DNA from: Flavobacteriaceae bacterium EG-1
GTDB taxonomy: Bacteria; Bacteroidota; Bacteroidia; Flavobacteriales; Flavobacteriaceae
Reading direction: 5' to 3'
DNA: 64,000 nucleotides
Assembly (NCBI RefSeq): GCF_009649685.1
Contig: NZ_WJPK01000001.1
Location: 314,760 to 378,759, forward strand
Shown here: one piece after another, positions 16,736 through 43,266 of the stretch
How the letters are laid out: each line of letters starts with the position of its first letter
Numbering within the stretch: position 1 is the first letter of the stretch
Made by a program: the position numbers and the translations under genes
The notes under the pieces: generated by a model
The model's database searches: none
Told to the model about the DNA's origin: nothing
What the model saw: only the letters and a program-made list of their open reading frames with translations

Positions 16736-19612
16736 TTAACGGGGATATACAGCTTTACCGTCTGATAAAATTTTAGCATTTAGGGCTGCTATTCCTAAAA
16801 CTTGTGAACCAAAGTAATTTAAATGCGGGTTGGATTGATAGTCATTTTTAATTCTGTTTTGTAAACTTTGATTATAACGAGCTAGGTAGAACCATTCGTG
16901 CAATCTTCCTTTTGATGCGTACCCCCCTGTAGCATCAATATTTTCGGTTATTTTTTCGGCACCTACCCAAATAACATTTACAGTTTTAATTAATGCGTTT
17001 AGGTCAGACTGTTTCCAATACATGCCATTTTCCTTCGCTAAAACCATAAAACTAATAATTACTCCTGCGTGCGAGGTGTCTTGTATGTTTGATCCTTTGC
17101 GTACTCCCCATGTTTGATCCCATGCGTAAGCCGAAGAGTTTTTAGGATTGTCATAAATTTGATCTCTAAGGTTTGACGGTTCGCCGTACATAGTACCATA
17201 AGAAATGTTTTCAAAAACTTCTTTATATTTATTTTTTTTGGTGATTACATAAAGTTCCATTCCTATTCGAGCCCAATGTGAGGCCATATGAGTTCTTGAA
17301 CGATAAAATTGATTAATTCCTGAAGATTCATATCTATCCCAAATATTTTTTTCCGAAAATTCCAAAAGCTTATTATACTGATTTTTATATTTCGAAGAAT
17401 TCTTAATACTTGAAGTTTGAGATATAACTCTAAGTAAAGTGGCAACATGTCTCCAATAATATGAGTCCCATAAGTTATATTTATTTCCATCGCTTGCAGG
17501 CCAACCTAAATAACCACCTCCAACAGATTTTGCGTCATCAACAGTATTGTTTATAAGTTCTAAGGCGGTATCTAAGTAACCATTATCTCCTGTTGCCTGC
17601 CACATGGATGATAATCCATCTATATATAAACCAAGATAATAATACTCTTGATTTCGTCCGCGACTATTAGACATCGAATAAGCTTCTGAACGATCTTTCG
17701 ACCATTGCGAATCGAATTGACCTTGCCAGTACCTTACATCAGCATTTGAAGTTGGCGTAACCAGCTCTTCTTCTTCCACAGTAATGGTTATATAATCGGA
17801 GTCCGTTAATCCTTCGGCATCCTTTACGGTTAATTTAACTTTATACGTTCCGGTTTGACTAAAAGTTTGTATGGGGTTATCGTCCGTTGAGCTTCCATTA
17901 CCATCAAAATCCCAAATATATTGCGTAATTTCTTTATCATCGGTTGATTTATTTGCGGAGAATTCAACTTTCAATGGTGCCTCACCTTTTGTAGTATTTG
18001 CTGTAGCATCTGCATTAGGTTTTTCATTAGCAGGTTCTTTTACCTCAATACTAATAGTTGCTGTATCACTTAATCCTTCATCATCTGTGACTGTAAGCTC
18101 TACTTCGTAAGTGCCAGCTTCATCAAAAGTATGCGTAGGACTAATTGAACTTGATTTACCATCTTTAAAGTCCCACAAATATGTTTTTATTTCATTGTCA
18201 TCGCTGGAATTTTTAGCACTAAATTTGACTTTTAAAGGGACTTCACCAGAAGTTGTATCCGCTGTTAATTTTGCAGTTGGACCTTCATTTTCCGGCTCTT
18301 CTGCTCTAATTGTTACTGTCTTTGTATTTGTTAGACCTTCATCATCTGTAACAATTAACTCAACTTTATAGGTGCCAGCTTTGGTAAATGTATGACTTGG
18401 ATTTTCTGTATTATCTTTTTCACTACCATCTTTAAAATCCCATAAATAACTTTTGATTTCAATATCATCACTAGATTTTTCACCATTAAATGTAATTTTA
18501 AGTGGAATTGTTCCTTCGGTTTTATTAGCTGAAGCAATTGCAACAGGGGCTTCGTTTTCATGTTCACCAACAACAATGGTAATAGTGTTGGAATTGGAAA
18601 GTTCATTTTCGTCCGTAGCTTTTACCTCAACTTTAAAAATACCCTTTTCGTCGAAGATATGTGTTGGGCTTTTTGAATCTGAAGAAGACCCATCTTTAAA
18701 ATCCCATTGGTACGATACAATTTCTGCATTCTCACTGGAAGCTTCAGCGTTAAATGTTACTTCTAAGGGAGCCTCACCTTTAGTAATATCCGATGACGCC
18801 TCTACGTTCAAAGTTATTTCTTCTTCTTCTTCTTCTTCTTCTTCTTCTTCGGAAACTATATTTTCTTCCAATATATATTCTTCTATACTCTCAGCATCTA
18901 TAGCAGTTTCATATGTAATAATTAATTTAGGAGCCTCTTCTGTGGCATGCTCTTTTGAAGCGATTGCTACGTCATCGCCATTAGCTTGTTCCAAAATTAT
19001 TGTAGTATTTTCTGGTAAAATTTCAGAGGCCAATAATTCAACGGATTCTGTTTTTTCTAACTCATATGTTTTGTCTATCGAACCTAAAACTATATTAGCT
19101 TCTGGCGCTGTATCTTCATTTAAATCATCTTCATGCCATTTTAATGTAGATCCTTTATGGATATTTATTTCACCATCACCATCATCTTTATATATGGTAA
19201 ATTGAAATTCCACATTAACTATCGCGCCACCTATGCTATCAATTGGACTCAAATCAAAAAGTAGGTAACTTTTTCTGCTATTTGTTTGTAATCTAATAAC
19301 TTCATGATTAACACCTTCACCATCATGTATATAGGCATCTTGTATTGGAAAAAAAGTAGTTGTGCGACTTTCCAAATATAATTGAGGTTCTTCTTCTTCA
19401 ATCTCAGAAATGTCTTCTGTTTCAGTATCTTCAATAATATTATCTTCAGATTCAGATTCTCGAGAATTACGGTCTTCAATTGATTGTGAAGCCTCATTTA
19501 GAATACTGTCACTTAATATATCACTATCCTTGCCGCAAGAGAGCACCAGAATAAATGAAAAAAGAATAAAACATAAAAATTTAATGTTTAGACGTGTGGG
19601 ATGAAAAGTCAT
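16736..19612 (-). CDS. Multidomain lipoprotein: DNRLRE/CBM96-like, four PKD domains, enzyme-like C-terminal domain
   Basis: A 958-residue surface or periplasmic lipoprotein. The signal peptide ends in the lipobox VLSC with Cys26. Residues about 83-235 resemble the DNRLRE/CBM96 domain (FPIQDAYIHDGEGVNHEVIR, LLFDLS). A run of eleven Glu (255-265) leads to four PKD domains (about 267-617), each with the YxWDFKDG or WDFDGNG core and a TVTDDEGL-type end. Residues about 625-958 match the C-terminus of the neighbour at 20054, sharing GGGYLGWPASDG, YNLWDSYYWR, RTHMASHWARIGMELY, AYAWDQTWG and GRLHEWFYLARYNQ. I cannot assign this last domain to a known family; its aromatic, His and Tyr-rich helical pattern suggests a polysaccharide lyase or hydrolase. 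In an EPS locus it may trim or release the polymer. Confidence 0.85.
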   Translation of the reverse strand: MTFHPTRLNIKFLCFILFSFILVLSCGKDSDILSDSILNEASQSIEDRNSRESESEDNIIEDTETEDISEIEEEEPQLYLESRTTTFFPIQDAYIHDGEGVNHEVIRLQTNSRKSYLLFDLSPIDSIGGAIVNVEFQFTIYKDDGDGEINIHKGSTLKWHEDDLNEDTAPEANIVLGSIDKTYELEKTESVELLASEILPENTTIILEQANGDDVAIASKEHATEEAPKLIITYETAIDAESIEEYILEENIVSEEEEEEEEEEEITLNVEASSDITKGEAPLEVTFNAEASSENAEIVSYQWDFKDGSSSDSKSPTHIFDEKGIFKVEVKATDENELSNSNTITIVVGEHENEAPVAIASANKTEGTIPLKITFNGEKSSDDIEIKSYLWDFKDGSEKDNTENPSHTFTKAGTYKVELIVTDDEGLTNTKTVTIRAEEPENEGPTAKLTADTTSGEVPLKVKFSAKNSSDDNEIKTYLWDFKDGKSSSISPTHTFDEAGTYEVELTVTDDEGLSDTATISIEVKEPANEKPNADATANTTKGEAPLKVEFSANKSTDDKEITQYIWDFDGNGSSTDDNPIQTFSQTGTYKVKLTVKDAEGLTDSDYITITVEEEELVTPTSNADVRYWQGQFDSQWSKDRSEAYSMSNSRGRNQEYYYLGLYIDGLSSMWQATGDNGYLDTALELINNTVDDAKSVGGGYLGWPASDGNKYNLWDSYYWRHVATLLRVISQTSSIKNSSKYKNQYNKLLEFSEKNIWDRYESSGINQFYRSRTHMASHWARIGMELYVITKKNKYKEVFENISYGTMYGEPSNLRDQIYDNPKNSSAYAWDQTWGVRKGSNIQDTSHAGVIISFMVLAKENGMYWKQSDLNALIKTVNVIWVGAEKITENIDATGGYASKGRLHEWFYLARYNQSLQNRIKNDYQSNPHLNYFGSQVLGIAALNAKILSDGKAVYPR
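18818..18850 (-). repeat. (TTC)11 microsatellite coding for eleven Glu
   Basis: Eleven perfect TTC triplets on the plus strand read as eleven GAA codons in the lipoprotein at 16736-19612, forming the hinge between the carbohydrate-binding-like domain and the PKD array. Replication slippage here changes linker length by whole codons without breaking the frame. Confidence 0.95.
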
Positions 19613-20053
19613 TTAATAGCTAAAAATTGAAATTAAAAATTTTGCAATTATACGCAGGTAAAGTTATTTTTCGATAAAAAACCTTATTTTTTCGATGAAC
19701 TGCACATTAATAAATTCTTTTAACGAATTCAAGATTCAATTATTGCGTATGTTGACATAGCAATATACCTTATTGTAGGATAGCTTGGATGTTTGTAACA
19801 CCTTAATTAACATTTTTTTTAGAATAAGATCGATGAAATACGTTTCTTTCATTCTATTTTAAAACCAAAATTATGTAGGTGGCAATTAATTGATTTAGAA
19901 AGGGTTGTTTTTTTATGTATTTCTCACACAAAGAGAAGGATAATTTTTAGACTAATCCTTTACTTTGTTTCTTAATTTTATCAATGAATGTGCTTTTTTA
20001 AGGAAAAATCTATATATAAACAACATTTAAAAATGAATAATTAAAGTGTGTAT
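19613..20053. other. Intergenic region between the two lipoprotein genes with TCGATRAA boxes
   Basis: About 440 bp containing no gene. It is the upstream region of the lipoprotein gene starting at 19612. Three copies of TCGAT[AG]AA are present on the plus strand at 19671, 19692 and 19830; the last extends to TCGATGAAATACG, a 13-mer repeated exactly upstream of the paralogous gene at 21616. No standard TAnnTTTG promoter box was seen near the 19612 start. Confidence 0.55.
19830..19842 (+). promoter_or_regulatory. TCGATGAAATACG box upstream of lipoprotein gene
   Basis: An exact 13-base match to 21616-21628, and near match (CGATGAAATATG) to 59300-59311. All three lie upstream of minus-strand genes for secreted lipoproteins, at about 218, 120 and 60 bp from the start codons. 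Function is inferred from recurrence only; a regulator-binding site is the simplest reading. Confidence 0.4.
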
Positions 20054-21493
20054 CTAGTTCTCTGGATAATACGGACTGCCATCTACAAGGATTTTTGCAT
20101 TTAGAGCAGCAATGCCTATGACTTGAGTGCCATAATATTCAAGATGATTGCCGATGTAATCTTTTTTTAGTCTATTTTGTAATTCTTGATTAAATCTACC
20201 TAAATAAAACCATTCATGTAATCGTCCTTGATTATGATAAAAGCCTCCGGTACCATCAACGTTCGTATGCATTTCTTTAGGTGTTGAATTAGGCCATACA
20301 ATATCTAATGTTTTAATAAATGAATTAATATCTTTCTCGGTCCAATACATATTATTTTCGTAAGCCAGAACCCAAAAACTTATTATTGCCCCTGCATGGT
20401 TAGTATCTTGTATCTCTGAGCCGTTAATTGACCCCCAATGTGAATCCCAAGCATAAGCTGTTGAATTTTTAGGATTTTCATATAATTGTTCTTTCAAGTT
20501 TGAAGTTCTACCTGGCATTTCACCAAAAGATATATTGTCAAAAACTTCTTTATATTTTTCATTACCGGTGACTATATACAATTCCATACCAATTCTGGCC
20601 CAATGGGATGCCATATGCGTTCGTGACCTGTATATTGAACTATTTCCATAAGAAAAGTATCTATTCCATATATTTTTCTCTGAAAAGTCTAAAATTCTTT
20701 CATAATTTTCCTGATATCCAGAAGCTCTAAGGTTTGGTGATTGATATAATTTACGAATTAATGTAGCTACTTGACGCCAGTAATATGCATCCCATAGATT
20801 ATATTCAACACCATCATGTGCAGGCCATCCTAGGTAACCGTTCCCCACTGAAACCGCATCATCCATTGTATTGTTTATAAGTGTTAATGCATCATTTAAA
20901 TAAGAACTGTCACCAGTAGCTTGCCATGTTGATGTTAAACCATCAATATAATAAGCTAAGAAATAGTATTCTTGATTTTTATTAGCACTTTTTGATTTAG
21001 AAATTGCATCAGCAAAGTCACTTTTTTTCCATTTATCATCAAATAATCGTTGCCAATATTTCACCTCATCATTTATTTTTGTCACTGCAACCTTAGTATC
21101 TGTAGTGGTATTTGAACCGTCTTCTTGAGATGTTTGGGTTGTATAGGTGAAATTATCCGTCGTATCTTCTGAATTATTAGAATTAGGAACGTATGTAAGG
21201 GTATTGTCTTCATTAATTTGTATTACTCCATTCTCTGGTTGGGAAGTGGTTAAAATTTCAACATTTTCTTCGTCTGCAATAACATCATTAGAAAGTACAT
21301 CAAGTATAATTGCATCATTACCATTTATGACATAATTATCTTCAATAAAAACACTACTAATTAGATTAGCTTCTAAATTGTCGACCGCTACATATTCAGA
21401 TAGCAAATCACTATCCTTACTGCAAGAAAACAAGGAGAGAATAAATACATAAATTATCATGAATTGATAGTTTTTTAAGCGAAGATAGGTCAT
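20054..21493 (-). CDS. Lipoprotein with cadherin-like domain and the same enzyme-like C-terminal domain
   Basis: About 479 residues from the preferred Met at 21493 (MTYLRLKNYQFMIIYVFILS), which gives a normal lipoprotein signal ending SLFSC with Cys24; an upstream Met at 21529 would give an overlong leader. Residues about 45-140 form a cadherin/VCBS-like tandem domain with DVLSND, NGVIQINEDNTLTYVP and DNFTYTTQ. Residues about 145-479 are closely similar to the last third of the protein at 16736 (WQATGDSSYLNDAL, NGYLGWPAHDG, RTHMASHWARIGMELY, GRLHEWFYLGRFNQ, IGIAALNAKILVDG). The two genes are tandem duplicates with different N-terminal accessory domains. Probably exported to the outer membrane and acting on the locus's own polysaccharide; the reaction is unknown. 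Confidence 0.85.
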   Translation of the reverse strand: MTYLRLKNYQFMIIYVFILSLFSCSKDSDLLSEYVAVDNLEANLISSVFIEDNYVINGNDAIILDVLSNDVIADEENVEILTTSQPENGVIQINEDNTLTYVPNSNNSEDTTDNFTYTTQTSQEDGSNTTTDTKVAVTKINDEVKYWQRLFDDKWKKSDFADAISKSKSANKNQEYYFLAYYIDGLTSTWQATGDSSYLNDALTLINNTMDDAVSVGNGYLGWPAHDGVEYNLWDAYYWRQVATLIRKLYQSPNLRASGYQENYERILDFSEKNIWNRYFSYGNSSIYRSRTHMASHWARIGMELYIVTGNEKYKEVFDNISFGEMPGRTSNLKEQLYENPKNSTAYAWDSHWGSINGSEIQDTNHAGAIISFWVLAYENNMYWTEKDINSFIKTLDIVWPNSTPKEMHTNVDGTGGFYHNQGRLHEWFYLGRFNQELQNRLKKDYIGNHLEYYGTQVIGIAALNAKILVDGSPYYPEN

Positions 21494-21529
21494 AAGTAGG
21501 TTACATTTTGAATCTGATTTGGGAATCAA

Positions 21530-21972: not shown

Positions 21973-23436
21973 ATGATATTTAACTCCATTGATTTTGCAA
22001 TATTTTTACCAATAGTTTTTTCTTTATATTGGTTTGTATTTGATAAAAACTTGAAGTACCAAAATATAGTAATTGTAATTGCTAGTTATTTATTTTATGG
22101 TTGGTGGGATTGGCGTTTTTTAGCATTAATATTTGTTAGTTCGCTAATTGATTTTTCTGTTGGAATAAAACTTGAAAAAGAAAATGGCAAAGGTAAAAGG
22201 AAAATTCTACTTTGGCTTAGTGTTATAGTAAATCTCGGCTTACTCGGTTTCTTTAAATACTATAATTTTTTTCTAGAAAATTTCATATCTACTTTTTCAT
22301 TTTTTGGGATAGGTTTTAAGGCTAATACCTTAAATATCATTTTACCTGTAGGTATTTCATTTTATACTTTCCAAACTTTGAGTTATACTATAGATGTGTA
22401 TAAGGAAAAACTAAAACCTTCGCATAATTTCATTTCTTTCTTAGCATTTGTAAGCTTTTTTCCACAGCTAGTAGCTGGACCTATTGAACGAGCAACAAAT
22501 TTGTTGCCTCAATTTTATAAAAGACGATTATTTTCGTACAAGAAAGGCGTTGACGGTATAAGACAGATTGTATGGGGTTTGTTTAAAAAGATTGTAATTG
22601 CGGACAACTGTGCAAAATTTACAAATGAAATTTTTACCAATTATGCAAGTTTAGATGGAAGTACATTGGTAGTAGGTGCAATTCTTTTTACTTTTCAAAT
22701 TTATGGCGACTTTTCGGGTTATTCTGATATTGCAATTGGAACGGCTCGTCTATTTGGATTTGAATTAAAACAAAATTTTGCTTTTCCATATTTTTCTAGG
22801 GATATGGCTGAGTTTTGGAGAAGGTGGCACATTTCTTTAAGTACCTGGTTTAGGGATTATTTATATATACCTTTAGGAGGTAGTAGAGGTAAAACCATAA
22901 TGAAGGTTAGAAATGTTTTTATAATATTCCTTGTAAGTGGATTTTGGCATGGCGCAAATTGGACTTTCGTCCTTTGGGGTTTATTAAATGCTTGTTATTT
23001 TATACCTATTATGCTTACAAATAGAAATAGGAATAACACAGACACTGTTGCTTTAGGTAAGATCTTTCCAACATTGAAGGAACTTTTACAAATGAGTTTA
23101 ACATTTGGACTAACTACATTCGCCTGGGTGTTTTTTAGGGCAGAAAATATAACTCATGCACTTAGTTATATCAAAAGAATATTTTCAAGCAACAACTTTC
23201 TTAATTTAATCCCCCAAACATGGGGAGGAAGGATGTTAAGTGATTTTGTTTTCACTCTCTGTAGTATCTTAATATTAATGGTTGTAGAATGGTTTGGAAG
23301 AGAACAACAATATGGCATTGAAACTATGTTTGGTATTAAGCATCGATATATAAGATGGATTATTTATCTGGTTCTTCTATTTTATATTATAACCTTTGCG
23401 GGCAGTTCACAAGATTTTATTTATTTTCAATTTTAA
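21973..23436 (+). CDS. MBOAT family membrane O-acyltransferase (AlgI-like)
   Basis: A 487-residue polytopic membrane protein of the membrane-bound O-acyltransferase family, resembling AlgI, which moves acyl groups across the inner membrane for polysaccharide O-acetylation. Evidence: the AlgI-type start MIFNSIDFAIFLPIVFSLYW, LPVGISFYTFQTLSYTIDVY, FFPQLVAGPIERATNLLPQF, the amphipathic FWRRWHISLSTWFRDYLYIPLGGSR, and the active-site His in VSGFWHGANWTFVLWGLLN. About ten hydrophobic segments are visible. It is followed after 8 bp by an SGNH/AlgJ-like partner, the usual two-gene arrangement for periplasmic acylation of EPS. Confidence 0.95.
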   Translation: MIFNSIDFAIFLPIVFSLYWFVFDKNLKYQNIVIVIASYLFYGWWDWRFLALIFVSSLIDFSVGIKLEKENGKGKRKILLWLSVIVNLGLLGFFKYYNFFLENFISTFSFFGIGFKANTLNIILPVGISFYTFQTLSYTIDVYKEKLKPSHNFISFLAFVSFFPQLVAGPIERATNLLPQFYKRRLFSYKKGVDGIRQIVWGLFKKIVIADNCAKFTNEIFTNYASLDGSTLVVGAILFTFQIYGDFSGYSDIAIGTARLFGFELKQNFAFPYFSRDMAEFWRRWHISLSTWFRDYLYIPLGGSRGKTIMKVRNVFIIFLVSGFWHGANWTFVLWGLLNACYFIPIMLTNRNRNNTDTVALGKIFPTLKELLQMSLTFGLTTFAWVFFRAENITHALSYIKRIFSSNNFLNLIPQTWGGRMLSDFVFTLCSILILMVVEWFGREQQYGIETMFGIKHRYIRWIIYLVLLFYIITFAGSSQDFIYFQF

Positions 23437-23444
23437 ATATTATA

Positions 23445-24413
23445 ATGAACAAATTCATATTAAATATAATTGGCTTTATGGTCTTATTGTTTGTTTTTAG
23501 CAAATGTTTTGATGGCATTATAACATATGGTCTGCAGCAAAGTGAAACTAAATTATTTGATAACCTCCGAAAAATAAATAAGGGTGAAATACGATCGGAC
23601 CTAATAATAAATGGAAGTTCAAAGGCTCTAGTGCAAATAGATCCTATAATTTTAGATTCTATCTTGGATATAAATTGTTATAACTTAGGATTAGATGGAA
23701 CTCCATTTATTCCACAAAAAGCGCAATATGAGTTTTACAGACAGAAAAATATAAAACCTAAAATAATAATCCAAGTCGTTAGCAATGGAACATTAAGAAG
23801 TTTAAAGAGTGGTTTTAAGGATCATATTAAATTTGCTCCGTATTTAGACATACCGCAAGTTAATGCTCATATGAAACTAATCGGCAGTTTCGGATATTTA
23901 GATTATCACCTTCCATTGTATCGGTATAGAGGCAAACCTTTTGAAACAATTACTGGAATATTATCCTTTTTTAAGATAAAAATATTTAAAACTAAACATA
24001 TAAAAGGATATTCACCTAACGATAGAAATTGGATAGAAAATAAAAATGAGAAAAAGGAATCAAAGAAAGCTACTATTAATTCTGAAGTAATTGAGAAATT
24101 CACTTCCTTAGATAGTTTGTCGATTGACAATTTTGAAAGTTATTTGGATCGCTGTAAAAAAGAAAATATAATTACATTTTTAGTTTACCCACCAATTTAT
24201 TCGGAATCATTCCGTACCATAAAAAATATTGATTATTATAAAAAAGCAGCCAACAATTATAATGCAATATTCCTTGATTATTCAAAAGACTCAACAATTG
24301 CTAATAAGAAATTATATTTTTATAATTCTCAACATTTAAATAAAAGAGGTGCAACGGTTTTTACAAAAAAAATGGCCAAAGATATCGTGTCACATGTTCA
24401 ATTTAAATTATAA
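23445..24413 (+). CDS. SGNH/AlgJ-like acyltransferase partner, membrane-anchored
   Basis: About 322 residues from ATG 23445 (MNKFILNIIGFMVLLFVFSKCF), one N-terminal hydrophobic anchor followed by a periplasmic domain. A longer in-frame start at 23355 lies inside the MBOAT gene and is rejected. The SGNH-like block I motif appears as LIINGSSKALVQIDP and the C-terminal catalytic-type segment as YNSQHLNKRGATVFTKKMA, fitting a Ser...His hydrolase/acyltransferase fold (block V usually D-x-x-H; here S-x-H). Placed directly after AlgI-like MBOAT, it probably transfers the exported acyl group to the polysaccharide. Assignment rests on motif and context, since similarity to named families is weak by eye. 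Confidence 0.75.
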   Translation: MNKFILNIIGFMVLLFVFSKCFDGIITYGLQQSETKLFDNLRKINKGEIRSDLIINGSSKALVQIDPIILDSILDINCYNLGLDGTPFIPQKAQYEFYRQKNIKPKIIIQVVSNGTLRSLKSGFKDHIKFAPYLDIPQVNAHMKLIGSFGYLDYHLPLYRYRGKPFETITGILSFFKIKIFKTKHIKGYSPNDRNWIENKNEKKESKKATINSEVIEKFTSLDSLSIDNFESYLDRCKKENIITFLVYPPIYSESFRTIKNIDYYKKAANNYNAIFLDYSKDSTIANKKLYFYNSQHLNKRGATVFTKKMAKDIVSHVQFKL

Positions 24414-24442: not shown

Positions 24443-25723
24443 TTAAAGTCTTCCATCTATTTTACACTTTAATATGCCTTTTACATCGTATAAAACGCCA
24501 TTATCCGTAAGCATATTTCTTAGGTCTAATTCTAAATATTCGTTATGGGCAACAGTTAATACAATCGCATCAAATTTATTATTTGGAAGCGTGTTGGTGG
24601 TCTCTAAGCTGTATTCATGCCCTACTTCCTCCGGTGATGCCCAAGGGTCATAAATGGTAATATCGCTATCGTAACTTTTAAGATTTGCGATTACATCTAC
24701 AGCTTTAGTATTTCTAACATCAGGACAATTCTCCTTAAAAGTAATTCCTAAAACTAGTATTTTAGCACCTTTTACTTTTATATCTCTTTGCAGCATTAGT
24801 TTCACTACTTCAGATGACACGTATTTACCCATGCCGTCATTCATTCTTCTACCAGCAAGTATAATCTCTGGATGGTAGCCATACTCCTGCGCACGTTGCG
24901 CCAAATAGTAGGGGTCAACACCAATACAGTGACCACCCACTAAACCGGGTTTAAATGGTAAAAAATTCCATTTTGTTCCCGCCGCTTCTAGTACTGCATG
25001 CGTATCTATATTCATTAAATTGAAAATCTTGGCTAATTCGTTTACGAAAGCAATATTTATATCGCGCTGCGAATTTTCAATAACTTTTGCTGCTTCAGCG
25101 ACTTTAATAGTTGGTGCTAAATGCGTTCCAGCAGTAATTACTGAGGCATACAAAGCATCAACTTTCTTTCCAATTTCTGGAGTAGAACCTGAAGTTACCT
25201 TTAAAATCTTTTCAACAGTATGTTCTTTGTCACCCGGGTTTATTCGCTCTGGTGAATACCCAACAAAGAAGTCAATATTAAATTTTAAATCACTAACTTT
25301 TTCTAAAACAGGAACACATTCATCTTCTGTAACACCTGGGTACACTGTTGATTCGTACACAACAACATCACCTTTCTTTAAAACCTTACCAACTGTTTCA
25401 CTAGATTTATACAATGGAGTTAAAACTGGTCTATTGGTGCTATCTACTGGGGTAGGGACCGTAACAATATAATAATTGCAATCAGCAATAGTATCAATTT
25501 TATTGGTGCAATAAAGTCCTTTGTCAAAATTAGGCGTGATTTGGAGAACCTCTTGTAATACATCATCAGAAACTTCGAGTGTACTATCCTTGCCTGCTTG
25601 TAATTCTTTAATTCTACTCTCATTGATATCGAACCCGATAACTGGATATTTTGTTGCAAATAGTCGCGCTAATGGCAATCCTACATATCCAAGACCTATG
25701 ATAGCTATTTTTGGTGTCATCAT
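24443..25723 (-). CDS. tviB: UDP-N-acetylglucosaminuronate/galactosaminuronate-type nucleotide sugar dehydrogenase
   Basis: A 426-residue UDP-sugar 6-dehydrogenase of the TviB/VipA/WbpA type: it oxidises C6 of a UDP-HexNAc to the carboxylate in two NAD-dependent steps. Seen are the Rossmann GLGYVGLPLARLFATKYPVIGFDIN, the TVPTPVDSTNRPVLTPL segment, ESTVYPGVTEDECVPVLE, the catalytic Cys in GLVGGHCIGVDPYYLAQRAQ, and GITFKENCPDVRNTK in the C-terminal domain. It is 3 bp downstream of the WbpP/TviC-like epimerase, the combination that gives UDP-GalNAcA in the Vi antigen pathway. Convergent with the AlgJ-like gene (29-bp gap). Confidence 0.93.
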   Translation of the reverse strand: MMTPKIAIIGLGYVGLPLARLFATKYPVIGFDINESRIKELQAGKDSTLEVSDDVLQEVLQITPNFDKGLYCTNKIDTIADCNYYIVTVPTPVDSTNRPVLTPLYKSSETVGKVLKKGDVVVYESTVYPGVTEDECVPVLEKVSDLKFNIDFFVGYSPERINPGDKEHTVEKILKVTSGSTPEIGKKVDALYASVITAGTHLAPTIKVAEAAKVIENSQRDINIAFVNELAKIFNLMNIDTHAVLEAAGTKWNFLPFKPGLVGGHCIGVDPYYLAQRAQEYGYHPEIILAGRRMNDGMGKYVSSEVVKLMLQRDIKVKGAKILVLGITFKENCPDVRNTKAVDVIANLKSYDSDITIYDPWASPEEVGHEYSLETTNTLPNNKFDAIVLTVAHNEYLELDLRNMLTDNGVLYDVKGILKCKIDGRL

Positions 25724-25726
25724 TAA

Positions 25727-26731
25727 TTAATTTAATTTTAGATTATTCCAATACCAGTGTACAGCCTCTTTTAGACCTTTTTTGATATCAAATTCAGGTT
25801 GATAGTTTAATAATTGTTTTGCTTTGTCTATTGAAGCCAATGAATGCGGCACATCACCTTGTCGTTCTGGTCCATAAATAATTGCTACATCGTTTATTTT
25901 GGTGTCAAATTCCGCCAAGAAAGATTTTAATAACCCTACGAGCTCCTTTAAATTGGTTCGTTCACCATAGGCCACATTATAAACGGTGTTAATTGCCTTA
26001 ATATTGTCTGAAAGTAAGGCTCGAACATTCATTTGTATTACATTGTCGATATATGTAAAATCTCTTGAGAAACTACCATCACCATTAATAGTTGGTGATT
26101 GGTGTTGCAGTAATTGTATAACAAATTTTGGTATTACGGCAGCATAGGCTCCATTAGGGTCCTGTCTTCTGCCAAATACATTAAAGTAGCGCAGGCCTAT
26201 TGTTTCAAGTCCATACGTTTTGGCAAACACGTCGGCGTACAATTCATTTACGTATTTCGTAATTGCATAGGGGGAAAGAGGTTTTCCTATAACATCTTCC
26301 ACTTTAGGCATGGATGTTGAATCCCCATAAGTTGAAGAACTTGCAGCATATACAAATCGTTTAACTTTGGCGTCCCTAGCAGCTACTAACATATTAAGAA
26401 AACCAGATACATTAACATCATTACTTGTTATTGGGTCGTTTATAGATCTTGGCACAGAACCTAAGGCAGCCTGGTGCAAAATATAGTCGATTCCACTACA
26501 TGCACTGTGGCAGGTTGCCAATTCTCGAATATCCCCTTCAATTAAAGTGTAATTCGGATTTGTTAAGAACGGAGTAATATTTTCTTTTTTTCCTGTAGCA
26601 TAATTATCTAAACATACTACTTTATTGCCGTTTTTGAGTAGTGCTTCCGTGAGGTTAGTCCCGATAAAGCCGGCACCACCCGTTACAAGAACTTTAAAGT
26701 TAGAATTGAAATTTAAGTTTTTTAAATCCAT
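25727..26731 (-). CDS. wbpP: UDP-N-acetylglucosamine (uronate) 4-epimerase, WbpP/TviC-like
   Basis: A 334-residue extended short-chain dehydrogenase. VLVTGGAGFIGTNLTEALL binds NAD; LHQAALGSVPRSINDP is the hallmark of the WbpP/TviC subgroup; YAASSSTYGDS with SPYAITKYVNELY supplies Ser and YxxxK; LRYFNVFGRRQDPNGAYAAVIPKF is also characteristic. It interconverts UDP-GlcNAc(A) and UDP-GalNAc(A). Together with the dehydrogenase 3 bp downstream it should yield UDP-GalNAcA for the polysaccharide. Order relative to oxidation (before or after epimerisation) cannot be told from sequence. A 129-bp gap separates it from the next upstream gene. Confidence 0.93.
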   Translation of the reverse strand: MDLKNLNFNSNFKVLVTGGAGFIGTNLTEALLKNGNKVVCLDNYATGKKENITPFLTNPNYTLIEGDIRELATCHSACSGIDYILHQAALGSVPRSINDPITSNDVNVSGFLNMLVAARDAKVKRFVYAASSSTYGDSTSMPKVEDVIGKPLSPYAITKYVNELYADVFAKTYGLETIGLRYFNVFGRRQDPNGAYAAVIPKFVIQLLQHQSPTINGDGSFSRDFTYIDNVIQMNVRALLSDNIKAINTVYNVAYGERTNLKELVGLLKSFLAEFDTKINDVAIIYGPERQGDVPHSLASIDKAKQLLNYQPEFDIKKGLKEAVHWYWNNLKLN

Positions 26732-26860
26732 AGAATTGTCAATGTATAGCTGTGTTTTTTTTATAATTTACTTGGTTTTTAATCAAGAATTATAATTGAT
26801 GTTTTGTTAAATCTATTTTTTTTGATGGTAAGCTAAAGAATTTTGGTGTTGCTGTTTTAA

Positions 26861-27877
26861 TTAGATGTTGTAATAGTTTCTATACCATTTCACAAAGCTA
26901 CCTACACCATCGTTAATATTGGTATTCGGCCTATAATCATAGTCCTGTATTAGGTTGTCAACATCGGCCCAAGTTTTAGTTACGTCCCCGGGTTGCATAG
27001 GCAACATTTCTTTTTCCGCTTTTTTGCCTACTTTGTTCTCAATTGCTTGAATGAAATCTGTTAATTTTACGGAGTTATTATTCCCTATATTGTATATCTT
27101 GTATAATTGTCTATTCTTCAATGGCTTTGTTAATACCCTTACTACACCTTCAACTATATCACCCACATAGGTGAAGTCTCTTTCTAATTTACCATGATTA
27201 AACACTTTTATAGGTCTACCATTCAAAATTGCATCGGTAAAAAGGAATAGTGCCATATCTGGTCTTCCCCACGGGCCATAAACTGTAAAAAAACGTAAGC
27301 CTGTTGTCGCCATTCCAAATAAATGACTATAGGTATGTGCCATTAATTCATTACTTTTTTTACTTGCCGCATAAATGCTTATTGGGTTGTCTACGTTATC
27401 GCTTGTTGAAAATGGCACTTTTTCATTTAAGCCATAAACACTAGAACTACTTGCATAAACCAAATGCTTCACCTGATGATGTCTACAACACTCTAATAAA
27501 TTTAAAAAACCTACGATATTGCTATCTACATAGCTTTCTGGGTTTTCAAGACTGTAACGAACACCAGCCTGTGCTGCTAGATTACATACCGTAACTATGT
27601 TTTCATCTTTAAAAAGCTTTGGTAATTCATTTCTATCTTCCAAATTCATACGAACAAAAGAGAATTTATCACCATGTTTTGAACTGATGGTTTTCGAATT
27701 CCATTGTTCTGCGTCATTACTAGATATGCCAAGTTCTATTAGTCGATTATATTTTAGATGTACATCATAATAATCGTTGATGTTGTCTAAGCCAATAACC
27801 TCAATGCTTCTTTTTAATAGCGCTTCACACAAATGATGTCCAATAAAACCGGCAGCACCTGTTACTAGTATTTTCAT
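26861..27877 (-). CDS. UDP-glucuronate 4-epimerase
   Basis: A 338-residue extended SDR of the Cap1J/LpsL type that converts UDP-GlcA into UDP-GalA. Motifs are [39 protein letters not shown] (diagnostic of uronate epimerases), [31 protein letters not shown] and [13 protein letters not shown] (YxxxK). Its ATG overlaps the TGA of the upstream UDP-glucose dehydrogenase (27874-27877), so the enzyme that makes UDP-GlcA and the one that epimerises it are translationally coupled. The acidic sugar supplied may be GlcA, GalA or both. Confidence 0.95.
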
Positions 27878-29271
27878 GATTGGCCAATTTTGTAATATTG
27901 GAATCCTTTTGATTGCATAGTATCCTTATCTAAAATTCTTCGGCCGTCAAAAAGAAATGCGGGTTTTAGCATTTCTTTAAAAATAGCATCCCAATTATAG
28001 GTTTTAAATTCATCCCATTCTGTTAAGATACCTATGGCATGAGCATCTTTGGCTGCCTCCATGGGGTCTTCAACTACTGTTAATAGTCGTCTGTTTTCTT
28101 CAGGACTTCTTGATCCTAAGTAATCTAAATCACTATAAATTTGTTCTTTCGATACTTTAGGGTCATAAACAACAATCTTTGCTTGTTCGTCTAGTAATGC
28201 ATCGGCAACAAAGATGGCAGCTGATTCTCGTGTATCGTTAGTATCTTTTTTAAATGCCCATCCGTAAAAGGCTATTTTTTTGCCAGAAACTGTATTATAT
28301 AGTGTAGAAATAATATTTTCGGCAAATCTTCTTTTTTGGTAATCATTCATTATAATTACTTGTTCCCAATAATCTGCTACTTCTTGAAGTCCATAACTGC
28401 GAGCAATATAAACTAGATTTAGTATATCTTTCTGAAAACATGAACCTCCAAAACCAACGGAAGCATTTAAGAATTTAGGACCAATTCGACTATCAGCACC
28501 TATAGCACGAGCAACTTCGGCAACATTCGCATCTGTTTTTTCACATAAAGCAGAAATCGCATTAATCGATGAAACTCGTTGGGCTAAAAAGGCATTTGCT
28601 ACTAATTTAGATAGTTCTGAAGACCAAACGTTTGTTTGTAAAATTCTTTCTTTGGGTAACCAGTGCTCATAAATAGCACTTAAAGTATTTTTGGCTGCTA
28701 TTCCAGATTCCGTATCATCACCACCTATCAGAATTCTATCTGCTTTTAGTAAATCTTCAATTGCAGTTCCTTCAGCTAAAAATTCAGGATTTGATAAGAT
28801 TTCAAATTTAACATCATTACCAGTATTGTCTAAGATACTCTTAATAGCACTTGCAGTACGTACTGGTAATGTAGATTTTTCAACAATTATTTTATCATCC
28901 TTTGCTACTTTTGCAATATTTCTGGCACAAAGTTCAACAAATTTCAAATCTGCAGCTTGCCCTTTTCCTTTTCCATAAGTTTTTGTAGGGGTATTAACTG
29001 AGATAAAAATCATTTCTGCTTCATCAATGGCCTTATCAACTTCAGTCGAAAAGAATAGGTTTTTACCACGGCTGGCTGCAACAATTTCTTTTAGACCTGG
29101 CTCATATACTGGAAGTAAATCTAAATCATCATTATTCCAGGCATCTATTCTAACCTGATTTATATCAACAACAGTAACTTTAATTTCAGGGCATTGACTA
29201 GCAATAACAGACATAGTTGGGCCACCTACATAACCGGCGCCAATACAGCAAATTTTTGTAACTTTTTTCAT
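27874..29271 (-). CDS. ugd: UDP-glucose 6-dehydrogenase
   Basis: A 465-residue NAD-dependent dehydrogenase making UDP-GlcA from UDP-Glc. The N-terminus [19 protein letters not shown], the [17 protein letters not shown] loop, [26 protein letters not shown] and the active-site Cys in [19 protein letters not shown] are those of the longer, animal-type UGDH group and differ from the second dehydrogenase at 24443. [18 protein letters not shown] marks the C-terminal Rossmann domain. First gene of the minus-strand nucleotide-sugar operon, with about 410 bp upstream shared divergently with the aminotransferase gene. Confidence 0.96.
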
Positions 29272-36224: not shown

Positions 36225-36232
36225 TATCTTTG
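36225..36232 (+). promoter_or_regulatory. Candidate -7 box TATCTTTG for the first giant gene
   Basis: Exact match to the Bacteroidota consensus TAnnTTTG, downstream of the wzc terminator. No clear TTG lies 17-23 bp upstream, which lowers confidence. If used, transcription would begin near 36239, which argues against the in-frame TTG at 36230 as start codon. Confidence 0.5.
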
Positions 36233-36295
36233 TACGTCATTGATTTTTATATGTACCTGTACAGTTTAAGGAAGTTATTAAACACTATGTTGATT

Positions 36296-39200
36296 ATGGA
36301 AAAAAAATACACTAATCATAAGCGAAATTTAGATTCGTTATGCTATGAGAATATTATTGGTAAAAATCATATTTTGTTAAAATCTTATTCTTGGATACTA
36401 CTAATTCTATTGTTTCTTACCACTAGTTCAACAGTACAGGCACAGCTTCCTACATCTTTTCAACAAGTAGATTTGTTAACAGGTTTAACGAATGCCACAA
36501 CCATGCAATTTGCTCCTGATGGGCGTATTTTTATATTAGACCGTGGCGGTGAAATTATAATATATAAAACAGATACTCAAACTTCGGTAAGTGCTGGTAC
36601 CTTACCTGTTTATAACGAATTTGAAGATGGTTTATTGGGTATTGCTTTTGATCCTAATTTTTTAATTAACAATTATATTTATTTACATTATTCTGTAATT
36701 GGAGTGGACAAAAATCGGGTGTCTCGGTTTACAATGAATGGTGATGCGATTGATTTGTCCTCGGAGGCAATCTTATTAGATTGGACCACACAGCGTATTT
36801 TAAGTTTCCATACAGGCGGTGACATGGCATTTGATTCCCAAGGAAATCTTTATATCGCGACTGGAGATAATACCAATCATGGTGGATATAGTAAAATGAG
36901 TCAAACTGAAAATGAAAACAGTGCCGAAAAAAGTTCATCTAACACCAATGATTTGCGAGGTAAAATATTGCGAATAACACCGCTATCCAATGGTACATAT
37001 TCAATACCACCTGGCAACCTTTTCCCTGTAGGCACTGCAAATACAAGGCCAGAAATTTATGTAATGGGTGCTCGAAATCCTTACCGTATATTTGTGGATG
37101 ACTCAAATTCAGATTGGTTGTTTTGGGGAGAAGTAGGACCTGATGCTAACTCCGCAAGTGCCACCTTAGGCCCAGAGGGATTGGATGAATTGAACCTTGT
37201 GAAGCAAGCAGGAAATTATGGTTGGCCCTATTTTTCTGGTGCGGATAATGATGCTTATCAAGTATTGTATAGAACTCCGTCTCCATATTTTTACGACCCA
37301 GCGTCTCCTGAAAATATTTCTAATTTTAACACGGGATTAACGAACTTGCCTGCGGCGCAACCTGCATGGTTAGAGTTTCCTGCTGAATGTTATTTGGCAG
37401 GTCCGCGTTATTATCACAATGCAAGTCTAACAGATTTGCAACGTTTTCCAATTGAATTGGATGAGCATTTCTTTTATTATGACTTTAACACGAGTCAAAT
37501 ATGGGCTGTAGAGATGGATGCTCAAGGAAATATTTTGAACAATGAACAATTTGCACCAACTGTATTTCCCAGTAATAATGATGGATTTATAGATATGGAA
37601 ATGGGACCTGATGGTAAAATGTATATCTTATCTTATGGTGCAGGATGTTGCCCAGATAACGTTGCCACTGGAAAATTACTTCGAGTAGATTATACGGGTA
37701 TAACTTCGAATGCGCCTCCTACAGTTAAGCTGTCAGCAGATGTAACAAGTGGTCAATTACCATTAACAGTTAATTTTTCTAGTGTCGGTACTTCAGATCC
37801 AAACGGAGATTCACCATTAACATATGAATGGGACTTTGATGGCGATGGTTTCGTAGATTCTGTTGGTGCCAACCCAACTTACACATACACGGTTGCTGGA
37901 ACTTTTAATGTTCAACTAAAAGTAAATGATGGTAATGGCGGTGTAGGAGTTAATAATATAACAATTTATGCCGGTAATACTGCGGCTGTTTTTACCTACA
38001 ATAATCCACAAGACGGTGGTTTTATGGATTGGGGTGATGAAATTTCAATTGATTTAACCGTAACTGATGCAGAAGATGGCTCAACAGGTTCTGGCATTGA
38101 TTGTAACGACGTTAATATAGTGCCTGCTTTAGGTCATTTAAATCACTATCATGATTTAGCCACTATAACGGGTTGTCCTAATGATTTTACACTGTCTTAT
38201 GATGGACATGATATTTCTGGAGATATGGATATTTATTATGTTATAAACGCTAATTATACCGACCAAGGCGGACTACTCACATATAACCAAATAGTATTAC
38301 ATCCAAAAAGAAAGGAAGCCGAATATTACGATACAGAAGACGGCACTACAATTATAACGAATACTGATATATTCGAAGGTGGAGCGTCTGCACTTGAAGT
38401 TAATAACAATGGTTATATTTCGTTTTCAGATAGAAATCTGGTGAATATGAGTGCCGTTAAATATAAAGTAGCCTCAACAACTGCTGGAGGGACCATAGAA
38501 TTTAGATTAGGAAGTCCAACAGGCACTTTATTAGCAACTACTGCAGTTCCTAACACTGGCAGTTTAAATAATTGGGAGGCTGTTGAGTCAAACTTTCCAA
38601 CAACGGTAGGCAAACAAGATCTCTATTTTGTATTTAAAAGTTCAAGTGGTTCTCAAGGAATTTTCGATTTAAATTATGTTGAGTTTATAGGCCCTGGTGT
38701 ATCTACCGATAATACTGCACCTGAAATTTCAATCGTAGAAGCTTTAAGTTCGACAGAAGTACAGGTGAAATTCTCTGAATATGTAACGGCTAATACAGCA
38801 AATCAAATATCTAATTATAATATTGACAATGGAGTAACGATTAGTTCAGCAGTATTGCAACAAGATGGTTTAAATGTTTTACTTACAGTATCACCATTAA
38901 GTTCCAGTTCTAGTTATTCCGTAACAGTTAGTAATGTACAGAATATAGCAGGACTCCCAATACAAACAGGTTCATATCCTTTCTCTATAATTAATTCAAT
39001 GCGCATAAATTCAGGAGGAGATGAAGTAGTAAATGATGCAAAAGTATTTACTATGGATGATTACGCCACTGGAGGAAGCAACTATTCAAGGTCAATTGCT
39101 ATTGCCAATACCGATAATGACGCAATATACCAAACTGAAAGATATGGCGATTTTACCTATGAAATTCCAGTTCCATTGTCAGGCGAGTATGATATTCGAT

Positions 39201-42200
39201 TACATTTCGCAGAATTGTATTTTGGAATAGGCAGTACACCTGGGGGCGAAGGTTCTAGAGTATTTAATGTATTGATAGAAGGGAATCCTGTATTAACAAA
39301 TTTTGATATTCTATCAGAAGTTGACCCCGCAACTGCATTACAAAAAGAGCTAAATGATATTAGTATTACAGATGGTTTTGCTACTATAGAATTAGAATCG
39401 ATTACCCAAAATGCAAAAATAGCTGCAATCGAAATATTGCCAAAAGATACTTTTTTATCTACCCCTAATATTTTAATTACTTCTCCCGAAAATGGTTGGA
39501 ATGTAAATCAATCTTTTGACGTGGCCTTTAGAGTAGAAAATTGGACAATATTAGAAGGCGACACACATATCCACTATTATGTTGATGGTGTACTAAGTGG
39601 TCCATATTATAGTCATGAACCTATAACATTTGATAATTTGAGTATTGGTAGTCATACTATTCGTGTAGAATTATTTTATGCTAATCATACCCCTACTGGC
39701 ATTTTTGATGAAGTTATGGTGGCCGTAACAGATCAACAGGTTTGTAATGAAACTGATTTCCCAGATTCATGGGTTGTCCATGAATATGATGCAAATCCTT
39801 ATGTAGTAATATATACTTTTGCGAATTATGATTTAGATGGTGATGGATTAAAAGATATAGTTACTGGAGGTTGGTGGTATAAGAATACTGGAGTAGTTTC
39901 AGATAATTGGCCAAAAAGTACGATTGGTGTAAATTTTGGCAATGTAGCCCATGTTCATGATTTTGATAATGATGGTGATATGGACTTATTGGGTACAACC
40001 TTAGGTCCTTCAGGGTCTGAATATGAAAGTGTTCAACTTATATGGGCTGAGAATGATGGCTCAGGAAATTTTACAATACATACGAATTTACCAACCATTA
40101 CTACTTCATGGTCCGAACCGTTTTTAGCGGGATTAGCGGGAGGTGATTTTGGAACTGGTGGTTTATATCAAATGGCAATAAACTGGAATGGCGCAGAGAA
40201 CACAAACGAACCAGTTCAGTTGCTTACTCCTACAGCAAATCCAACAACCGGAACATGGACAATAGCGGATATAAGTAATAGTTCTACAGGAGAAGATCTT
40301 CAAGCTGCTGATATTGATAATGACGGAGATTTAGATCTTTTTCAGGGTGTTAATTGGTTGGAAAATAATGGGTCAGGAGTATTTACTACACACTTAACTG
40401 GTTTGAGTTACGGAAGTACTCCAGATCGTGCTCAACTTGCAGATTTTGATAACGATGGTGATTTAGATGCTGTTGTAGGTCAATTGGGATATGGAAGTAA
40501 TCCAGATAGATACGATTTATCTTGGTTTGAAGCTCCTGCTGACCCTACTCAAACATGGACAGAACATTTATTATCAGATGATATTCATGGAAGTTTAAGC
40601 GTGTTTGCTTCTGATATTGATTTTGATGGCGATAAAGATATAATCGTTGGTGAATGGTTAGGAAGTCGTAGATTGATTGCTTTTGAAAATAATTTATGTA
40701 GTTCAGATGATTGGGAAATGCTTGTTATTGATGACAGTCCACAGAATTGGGAACACCATGATGGCGCACGTGTTGTTGATATAGATAATGATGGAGACTT
40801 AGATATTGTTTCTAATGGATTTAAAAGTCAAAAAGTAGTTAGAATCTATGAGAACACTACCCCATTAATTGTAAGTAATGACCCAGTTGTTGATGCAGGA
40901 TTGGATCAAACTGTAATCTTACCGAACAATACAATTACTATTTCAGGTTCGGCAACATCGCCAGATGGTAGTACTATTGCTAGTTATTTGTGGACGCAAG
41001 TTGAGGGTCCTAATGCAGCTGTCATGGCTAATGAAAATACTACTACTTTAGGTTTAAGTGAGTTAATATTAGGTGAGTATGTTTTTAGATTAACTGCTAT
41101 TAATGATTCAAATGATTTTGGATTTGATGAAGTGATAGTAACTGTTACAGATGGGGCTGAAGCGATACGAATAAATTCAGGAGGTCCAAATTTAACATTT
41201 AATAATATCGATTGGTCGGCTGACAATTATTTTGAGGGTGGTACTGTTAAAAATGTACCCATGCCAATTGCAAACACGTCTAATGATTCACTATATCAGA
41301 CTGAACGATATCATACATCAGGAACTTTAGTATACAAAATTCCTGTTGCAAATGGCACCCATAATTTAAATCTTCATTTTGCTGAAATATATTTTGGAGT
41401 TCCTGGTGATGGTTCGGATGGAGGAGAAGGGTCTCGTGTTTTTAATATTGATATTGAAAACGGACAAGGAGTTCGTGAAAATTACGATATTATTAAAGAG
41501 TCTGGAGGTCCTGCAACAGCGATTATAGAAAATTTTACCGGAATTAATGTAACCGATGGGGAATTGACAATTACCTTGACATCTGTGGTTGAAAACCCTA
41601 AAATTTCAGGGATTGAAATTGTTAGTGGTGGTACGAGTAGTGTACCAATTGCAGATGCTGGTGAAGACCGTACTATTACGATTCCAGTAGACACTATTAC
41701 TCTAGATGGCTCTGCAAGTGACCCAGATGGAGGATTGATTACGTCTTATTTATGGACCCAAGAAAGCGGACCTAATACGGCAATAATGAATGGTGATAAT
41801 ACAGCGGATATTGGTTTAAGTGGACTAATTGAAGGTGAATATGTTTTCAGATTAACGGTAACAGATGATGATGATGAAGTTGGTTTTGACGAAGTTACAG
41901 TTACTGTTTTAGGAGAACCCGAGACATTTAGAATAAATTCTGGGGGTCCTGAGTTAAGTTTTAATGAAGAAGTTTGGTCTGAAGATAACTATTTTGTTGG
42001 AGGTAGTATTTTTGAGAATATTATTGATATAGCCAATACAGAGAATGATGCGATGTACCAAACTGAACGTTTTCGATCTAGTAATCAACCTTTAGTATAT
42101 GAAATCCCAGTCACGAATGGAAAACATAATGTTAATTTACATTTTGCCGAAATATATTATGGTGTTGCTTCAGGAGGAGCTGCAGGTGGTATAGGTTCCA

Positions 42201-42967: not shown

Positions 42968-42990
42968 AAAACACTATTAAATATCTATCA

Positions 42991-43018
42991 AGCCCTGGTT
43001 TTTACTAGGGCTTTTTTT
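42991..43018 (+). terminator. Rho-independent terminator after giant gene 1
   Basis: AGCCCTGGT and ACTAGGGCT form a nine-pair stem (one G-T wobble) with a TTTT loop, followed by seven T. It lies 24 bp after the stop codon, so the two giant genes are likely separate transcripts. Confidence 0.9.
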
Positions 43019-43080
43019 ATTATTATAACTTTTATATTGTTTTATTCTATACTGTTTAATAGTAGTTTATCGGTATTCAC

Positions 43081-43100
43081 TGAATTTAAACGTAAATTCA
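43081..43100. promoter_or_regulatory. Perfect palindrome upstream of giant gene 2
   Basis: Arms TGAATTTA and TAAATTCA, each eight bases, flank AACG. The site lies 167 bp before the start codon of the second giant gene in an otherwise featureless 299-bp gap that follows the terminator. It has no T-run and so looks more like an operator than a terminator; function is unproven. Confidence 0.35.
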
Positions 43101-43266
43101 AAAGTTAATTATTTTCTATACAAGAAACTACCTATATTTATATTAACTCCCCTCTATTCGTTAGTTGATATTTCTTGAAGTACCCTCAATTTTAGTTACA
43201 TTAATTAAATAGTTTATTCTATTTGAATATTACATCAAATCATTAAATCGGAAAAACTAAATGTAA

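Follow-up and report, generated by a model that had tools for sequence, protein, structure and literature searches.

A predicted (alpha/alpha)6 toroid domain on tandem lipoproteins of a flavobacterial exopolysaccharide locus as a candidate new depolymerase family

Two neighbouring genes in an exopolysaccharide (EPS) locus of Flavobacteriaceae bacterium EG-1, gene A and gene B, encode lipoproteins ending in a common C-terminal domain, which is predicted to fold as a six-hairpin toroid and belongs to none of the GH105, GH88, GH76 and AGE families. We lean towards reading this toroid domain as a new family of depolymerases directed at the cell's own acidic polysaccharide and borne by surface lipoproteins, and hold with more assurance that it probably acts on the polymer of its own locus. 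The window, i.e., the whole 64,000-nucleotide stretch of DNA that was analysed, contains the following features:

16736..19612, minus strand: gene A, a 958-aa lipoprotein with lipobox, CBM96, four PKD domains and toroid
19535..19612, minus strand: gene A signal peptide and lipobox, Cys26 followed by GKDSD, by direct reading of the translation
18899..19378, minus strand: gene A CBM96 module, residues 79-238 (PF24517 1.2e-8; Foldseek 8wab 2.6e-9, 7vbo 1e-6)
17777..18805, minus strand: gene A four PKD domains, about residues 270-612 (PF18911, four stretches)
16739..17737, minus strand: gene A toroid domain (P0002), from motifs and alignment to P0001
20054..21493, minus strand: gene B, a 479-aa lipoprotein with lipobox, Big_9 and toroid
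21422..21493, minus strand: gene B signal peptide and lipobox, Cys followed by SKDSD
21080..21346, minus strand: gene B Big_9/cadherin-like domain (PF17963 1.3e-7)
20057..21067, minus strand: gene B toroid domain (P0001; AlphaFold2 model, pLDDT 93.8)
20789..20791, minus strand: codon of Asp93 of P0001, Asp or Glu in 28 of 28 members
20405..20407, minus strand: codon of Asp221 of P0001, invariant in 28 of 28
20396..20398, minus strand: codon of His224 of P0001, invariant in 28 of 28
24443..29271, minus strand: four genes for UDP-sugar dehydrogenases and epimerases, constant neighbours of the toroid gene family

The ORF of gene A (16736-19612, minus strand, 958 aa) has an ATG start, and that of gene B extends over 20054-21529 on the same strand, for a product of 491 aa if translation begins at a TTG codon and of 479 aa if it begins at the ATG of position 21493. 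An earlier note on this DNA had described them as tandem lipoproteins with a common C-terminal domain, and so they are: the two domains, of about 335 residues, are 61% identical (337 columns, E 2e-153), all five quoted motif blocks are present in both, and the lipoboxes read LVLSC-GKDSD in gene A and LSLFSC-SKDSD in gene B. A whole-genome search of the host found no third toroid copy beyond these two. The accessory modules proposed for gene A were likewise recovered, PF18911 matching four times and the CBM96-like module scoring 35.4 bits against a PF24517 cut-off of 26 (its six homologues all matched as well). For gene B the cadherin-like domain stands as Big_9 (1.3e-7), whereas Cadherin_4 itself scored below its family cut-off in the Pfam scan.

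Around gene A and gene B the window encodes glycosyltransferases, a Wzy-type ligase, a flippase, UDP-sugar dehydrogenases and epimerases, an MBOAT acyltransferase and Wza/Wzc-type export proteins, which bears out the EPS-locus setting read previously from the same stretch. The MBOAT gene and a gene for a 352-aa protein without Pfam match (21973-24413, plus strand) run in the opposite orientation and separate gene B from the dehydrogenases; the pair is missing at the corresponding place in a locus of the same genus (L038) and adjoins the toroid gene in another locus (L004). Two giant proteins of 2245 and 2460 aa, with GSDH, CBM6, Malectin and PKD domains, are encoded at 36230-50649 (plus strand), directly downstream of a Wzc-like gene, and the 2460-aa protein carries a Por secretion tail.

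With few exceptions, the relatives of the toroid are encoded in loci for polysaccharide biosynthesis. A UDP-sugar dehydrogenase gene lies less than 7 kb from a toroid member in 17 of the 19 member genomes (14 of the 19 hold only two such genes), and this linkage holds across genera and families. The exceptions are G223, where the dehydrogenases are 29 kb off, and G1082, a fragmented assembly in which they are on other contigs and polysaccharide genes adjoin the toroid gene. Weeksellaceae-like genomes encode the toroid as a single-domain secreted protein, within a run of flippase, pyruvyltransferase, glycosyltransferase and Wzy-type genes, and the ends of its gene overlap or abut the flanking glycosyltransferase genes. 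Relatives were found in 2 of 3 genomes sampled from the genus, 12 of 397 from the family, 7 of 395 from the order, 4 of 395 from the class and 9 of 395 from the phylum (several of the latter only as weak partial matches), in samples that overlap one another and also count the genome from which the window comes. Two of the hosts are the named species Maribacter vaceletii and M. halichondriae. Non-lipoprotein toroid paralogues occur in two genomes of one genus (L046, 9634-10818; L050, 16453-18026), outside polysaccharide loci and beside histidine kinase/response regulator-like genes. These paralogues, together with G223 and G1082, count against a depolymerase for the cell's own EPS.

The domain had been noted as unrecognised and guessed to be an (alpha/alpha)n toroid, and on both points our searches agree. 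AlphaFold2, run on a 22-row alignment, modelled P0001 with a pLDDT of 93.8 and a pTM of 0.93; its five models ranged between 86.8 and 93.8 in mean pLDDT. DSSP reads the model as alternating helices, six inner and six outer, forming six hairpins, and together with the structural matches this identifies the modelled fold as an (alpha/alpha)6 toroid. VIA-align comparisons with GH105, GH88, GH76 and AGE structures gave Z 18-21 over 261-303 residues at 7-12% identity, the best being GH105 4xuv (Z 20.8, 277 residues aligned, 3.3 A), followed by YteR (Z 19.8), GH88 4q88 (Z 19.4), GH76 4v1r (Z 19.2) and an AGE-type cellobiose 2-epimerase (Z 18.8); the top Foldseek match was a GH76 protein (3.4e-4). 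Neither P0001 nor P0002 has a Pfam or NCBIfam model, NCBIfam giving chance-level matches only on 28 members. The profile-to-PDB search returned the six-hairpin glycosidase 6ex6 (E 2.8e-8, in a match spanning one hairpin), GH76 (2.7e-5) and cellobiose 2-epimerase (2.5e-4), mostly via the hairpin repeat, and the search redone with a wider alignment pointed in the same direction, with weak glycosidase and AGE matches.

Membership of GH76 was rejected, PF03663 matching weakly in just two of the 22 members scanned (best E 0.016) and the adjacent Asp-Asp pair of that family (D136/D137 in 6shd) being absent: over 28 rows, a single Asp or Glu stands at position 93 and its neighbours are never acidic. 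GH88/GH105 was set aside with no PF07470 match and an hhalign probability of 58.6 over 94 columns only. So were PL5, as PF05426 matched none of 22 members at E<=1, nor P0001 or P0002, and AGE, as PF07221 is not among the six Pfam families matched by any of the 22 at that threshold. PF07944 (GH127) matched weakly in 10 of 22 members scanned singly (best E 3.2e-4); GH127 enzymes have catalytic/zinc cysteines, and no conserved Cys of this kind occurs in the 28 aligned rows. The toroid shares with the GH76, GH88/GH105 and GH127 six-hairpin glycosidases their fold and a weak profile similarity in the hairpin repeats, but differs from them in its conserved residues and in having no clear Pfam membership. 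An A2/A3 profile match to a PF05426 alginate lyase in G635 (L056) spans hairpins 1-3 only and was not used as evidence of homology because these hairpins are repetitive in all toroids; a PF05426 search of 60 genomes was uninformative, its control recovering 0 of 14. The viral contigs scanned held no relative of the domain. Two distant proteins without Pfam family (L073, 432-2699; L057, 2125-3501) have the D-x-(S/T)-H block, match poorly over the rest and possibly belong to a wider superfamily.

The N-terminal parts of these lipoproteins recur as two types of chassis, Cys-x-Lys-Asp-x-Asp followed either by Big_9 or by CBM96/PKD. In the toroid locus of G379, a second lipoprotein with the N-terminus SCSKDSDLL and Big_9 ends in a beta-helix, and a search of 219 family genomes with this beta-helix protein matched 19 genomes, many at the N-terminus only. 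In most of nine regions read, chassis proteins with other domains adjoin orthologues of the window's dehydrogenases. We tabulated 34 chassis or toroid proteins, 21 with the toroid and 13 without, the 13 having been found by searching with one beta-helix relative and thus giving a biased estimate of frequency; one chassis protein (L117, 5344-7230), missed by the lipobox pattern, is left out of the table. Seven of the 13 carry a pectate-lyase-like domain (in six, type A6, matching pectate lyase 9buj at 8.9e-48 and VexL 6fi2 at 4.4e-15) and four a second beta-helix type (in three, type A8, matching PL6 at 8.3e-7 and a pectate lyase at 2.9e-6), the table rows of G154 and two of G131 being assigned to A8. 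In the remaining two (L112, 10350-12707; L115, 8009-10072) the cargo is of a third type; among solved structures it comes nearest to a phage tail fibre protein (2.1e-11), which recalls the tailspike-like EPS enzyme WceF. The CBM96/PKD chassis bears a pectate-lyase-like domain in G013, where the N-terminal part is 39.7% identical to gene A over 549 columns, and a beta-helix in G190; in L042 (9357-11129, G058) CBM96 is fused to the toroid without PKD domains.

An orthologue of the dehydrogenase at 24443-25723 lies within 5 kb of 16 of the 21 toroid proteins and within 8 kb of 9 of the 13 non-toroid chassis, the fetched stretch holding none for the others. If G379 is left aside, the genomes with non-toroid chassis, seven in number, all fall outside the 12 toroid-bearing family genomes. 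Since the same chassis carries pectate-lyase/VexL-like or beta-helix cargo, the toroid probably does the same job as the modules that replace it, namely cleavage of the cell's own EPS, a polymer that is probably acidic. Repeated swapping of cargo is suggested; on a weakly supported chassis tree, 7 changes account for the toroid label where shuffled labels take 8.2 (143 of 500 shuffles were equally low), and the well-supported branches force only one. Copies of the A and B kinds from the window's lineage group in a single clade of the toroid tree (support 97/99), which suggests that in this lineage the domain was duplicated from one chassis onto another inside the locus. The open-access papers searched contained nothing relevant on the toroid family or on chassis swapping.

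After the lipid Cys, Lys at +3 and an acidic residue at +4 are found in 32 of the 34 tabulated proteins, and an acidic residue at +6 in 33. A surface rather than periplasmic location is likely for the gene A and gene B lipoproteins, given the resemblance of this pattern to the lipoprotein export signal C-x-K-(D/E)2-x of Capnocytophaga (PMC5080379, in excerpt), although just 4 of the 34 match C-x-K-(D/E)2 strictly, which counts against such a reading. As for the ligand, the CBM96 module was modelled with a pLDDT of 86.8 in the best version and 49.5-57.0 in the other four, and its nearest solved structures by Foldseek are a chondroitin-sulfate-binding module (2.6e-9) and an alginate-binding CBM96 module (1e-6). 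The founding CBM96, TM6-N4 of a Defluviitalea alginate lyase, is alginate-specific (PMC9971899, in excerpt); the gene A module scores above the Pfam cut-off, yet is only 16-19% identical to solved binding modules. That relatives of the module bind uronate-containing polymers is a hint on its ligand.

Conservation was counted over 28 aligned members, with P0001 numbering. W156, D221 and H224 are invariant (28/28) and residue 93 is always acidic (Asp in 12, Glu in 16); R98 and N198 are each kept in 25 of 28 and Y205 in 23, and position 271 is Asp in 25 members and Asn in 3. According to the helix map, the conserved residues stand either where inner helices begin, in their opening turn, or in the loops that precede these helices. 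In toroid folds the active site lies at the face of the loops entering the inner helices, and from this map we infer that the conserved residues sit at the active face. Asp93, at the start of inner helix 2 in a D-x3-W context, might correspond to the GH76 Asp pair, an idea that comes from profile alignment, not from superposition. The domain is under strong purifying selection, with dN/dS of 0.046, 0.056 and 0.062 in three close pairs (the other two of five pairs gave no dS). The Asp/Glu exchange at position 93, unusual for a catalytic residue, and the Asn at position 271 in three members both count against a depolymerase.

Because the conserved polar residues amount to two carboxylate positions and a His, a hydrolase seems at least as likely as a lyase; in rough terms, we give hydrolysis an even chance, elimination a smaller though sizeable one and any other chemistry a slim one. 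The strongest rival, if an unlikely one, is that the toroid is a beta-eliminase acting on the uronates of the cell's own EPS and forming a new AlgL-like toroid family of polysaccharide lyases. The locus genes make UDP-uronates, CBM96 relatives bind uronic polymers, and the toroid fills the slot of pectate-lyase/VexL-like and PL6-like modules; the mostly lyase-like nature of the replacing modules argues for elimination, not hydrolysis, and H224 with R98, Y205 and N198 could provide a base and carboxylate neutralisers. The active face, however, has no fully invariant Tyr or Arg over the 28 rows (compared with the PL5 His/Arg/Tyr set by residue type, rather than by superposition on a PL5 structure) and presents two conserved carboxylate positions instead, the closest sequence links are to glycosidases, not lyases, and the sole linked PF05426 alginate lyase (L056) matches in the generic hairpin region only. 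The toroid may work as a lyase, but its conserved residues do not favour that chemistry.

A non-catalytic toroid serving in binding or as a polymer scaffold, or a polymer-level epimerase, appears improbable. AGE epimerases do have the toroid fold and give weak profile matches, but their chemistry relies on a His pair where the toroid has one invariant His only, and both the invariant charged residues at the predicted active face, under strong purifying selection, and the replacement of the toroid by lyase-type modules on the chassis speak against this reading. Least probable of all is the digestion of foreign, e.g., algal, polysaccharide for nutrition with an incidental adjacency to EPS genes: marine Flavobacteriia do use surface lipoprotein CAZymes and the founding CBM96 member is alginate-specific, but the scan of window ORFs named no SusC/SusD family, the UDP-sugar dehydrogenase linkage is kept across genera and families, and the Weeksellaceae-like gene overlaps or abuts the glycosyltransferase genes on either side of it.

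By role, the nearest known kinds are AlgL, WceF and VexL, and the toroid genes, like those of EPS-locus depolymerases, are encoded in a biosynthesis locus. AlgL is a periplasmic (alpha/alpha)5 lyase of PL5, with H202/R249/Y256, encoded in an acidic-exopolysaccharide biosynthesis locus and proposed to do housekeeping on its own polymer, whereas gene A and gene B encode lipoproteins with CBM96, PKD or Big_9 modules, other conserved residues and no PF05426 match (PMC8829089, in excerpt). The AlgL-like role on the cell's own polymer advanced earlier is supported in part, by its setting: linkage to an acidic-polysaccharide locus and lyase-type replacements on the chassis are consistent with it, but a periplasmic-like location is not what the export-like signal indicates. 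WceF, the stewartan hydrolase of Pantoea stewartii, is encoded in an EPS operon and acts on its own EPS, but is a tailspike-like beta-helix trimer (PMC7949094, in excerpt). VexL, the Vi antigen depolymerase of Achromobacter (6fi2), is capsule-modifying and has homologues riding the same chassis, but its beta-helix fold is unrelated to the toroid (excerpts of PMC9597891 and PMC7949094).

On the preferred reading, the gene A and gene B products would sit in the outer membrane, probably facing the surface, where their Big_9, CBM96 and PKD modules would keep the toroid clear of the membrane and in place on the polymer. At its open face the toroid would cut the EPS backbone, most likely by hydrolysis through Asp221 and the acidic residue 93, along with His224 and a subsite lined by Trp/Tyr; the exported polymer would so be trimmed, released or cleared. 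More tentatively, and at somewhat less than even confidence, we propose that flavobacterial loci hold a depolymerase slot, formed by two chassis beside UDP-uronate genes, in which unrelated cutters (the toroid as a new CAZy family, and modules of the pectate-lyase/VexL-like, PL6-like or another beta-helix kind) replace one another as the polymer changes, so that the cargo would report EPS chemistry, the toroid having been copied from chassis to chassis in the window's lineage.

A few polymers, Psl, Pel and cellulose among them, are known to have a depolymerase encoded in their biosynthesis locus, mostly in Proteobacteria. The depolymerases for alginate, stewartan and Vi are described in PMC8829089, PMC7949094 and PMC9597891 (each in excerpt). 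If our reading is correct, many flavobacterial EPS loci would carry their own cutter on a conserved surface-lipoprotein chassis, one more family without a present model would be added, and ready enzymes would be at hand for dissolving or sequencing intractable marine exopolysaccharides.
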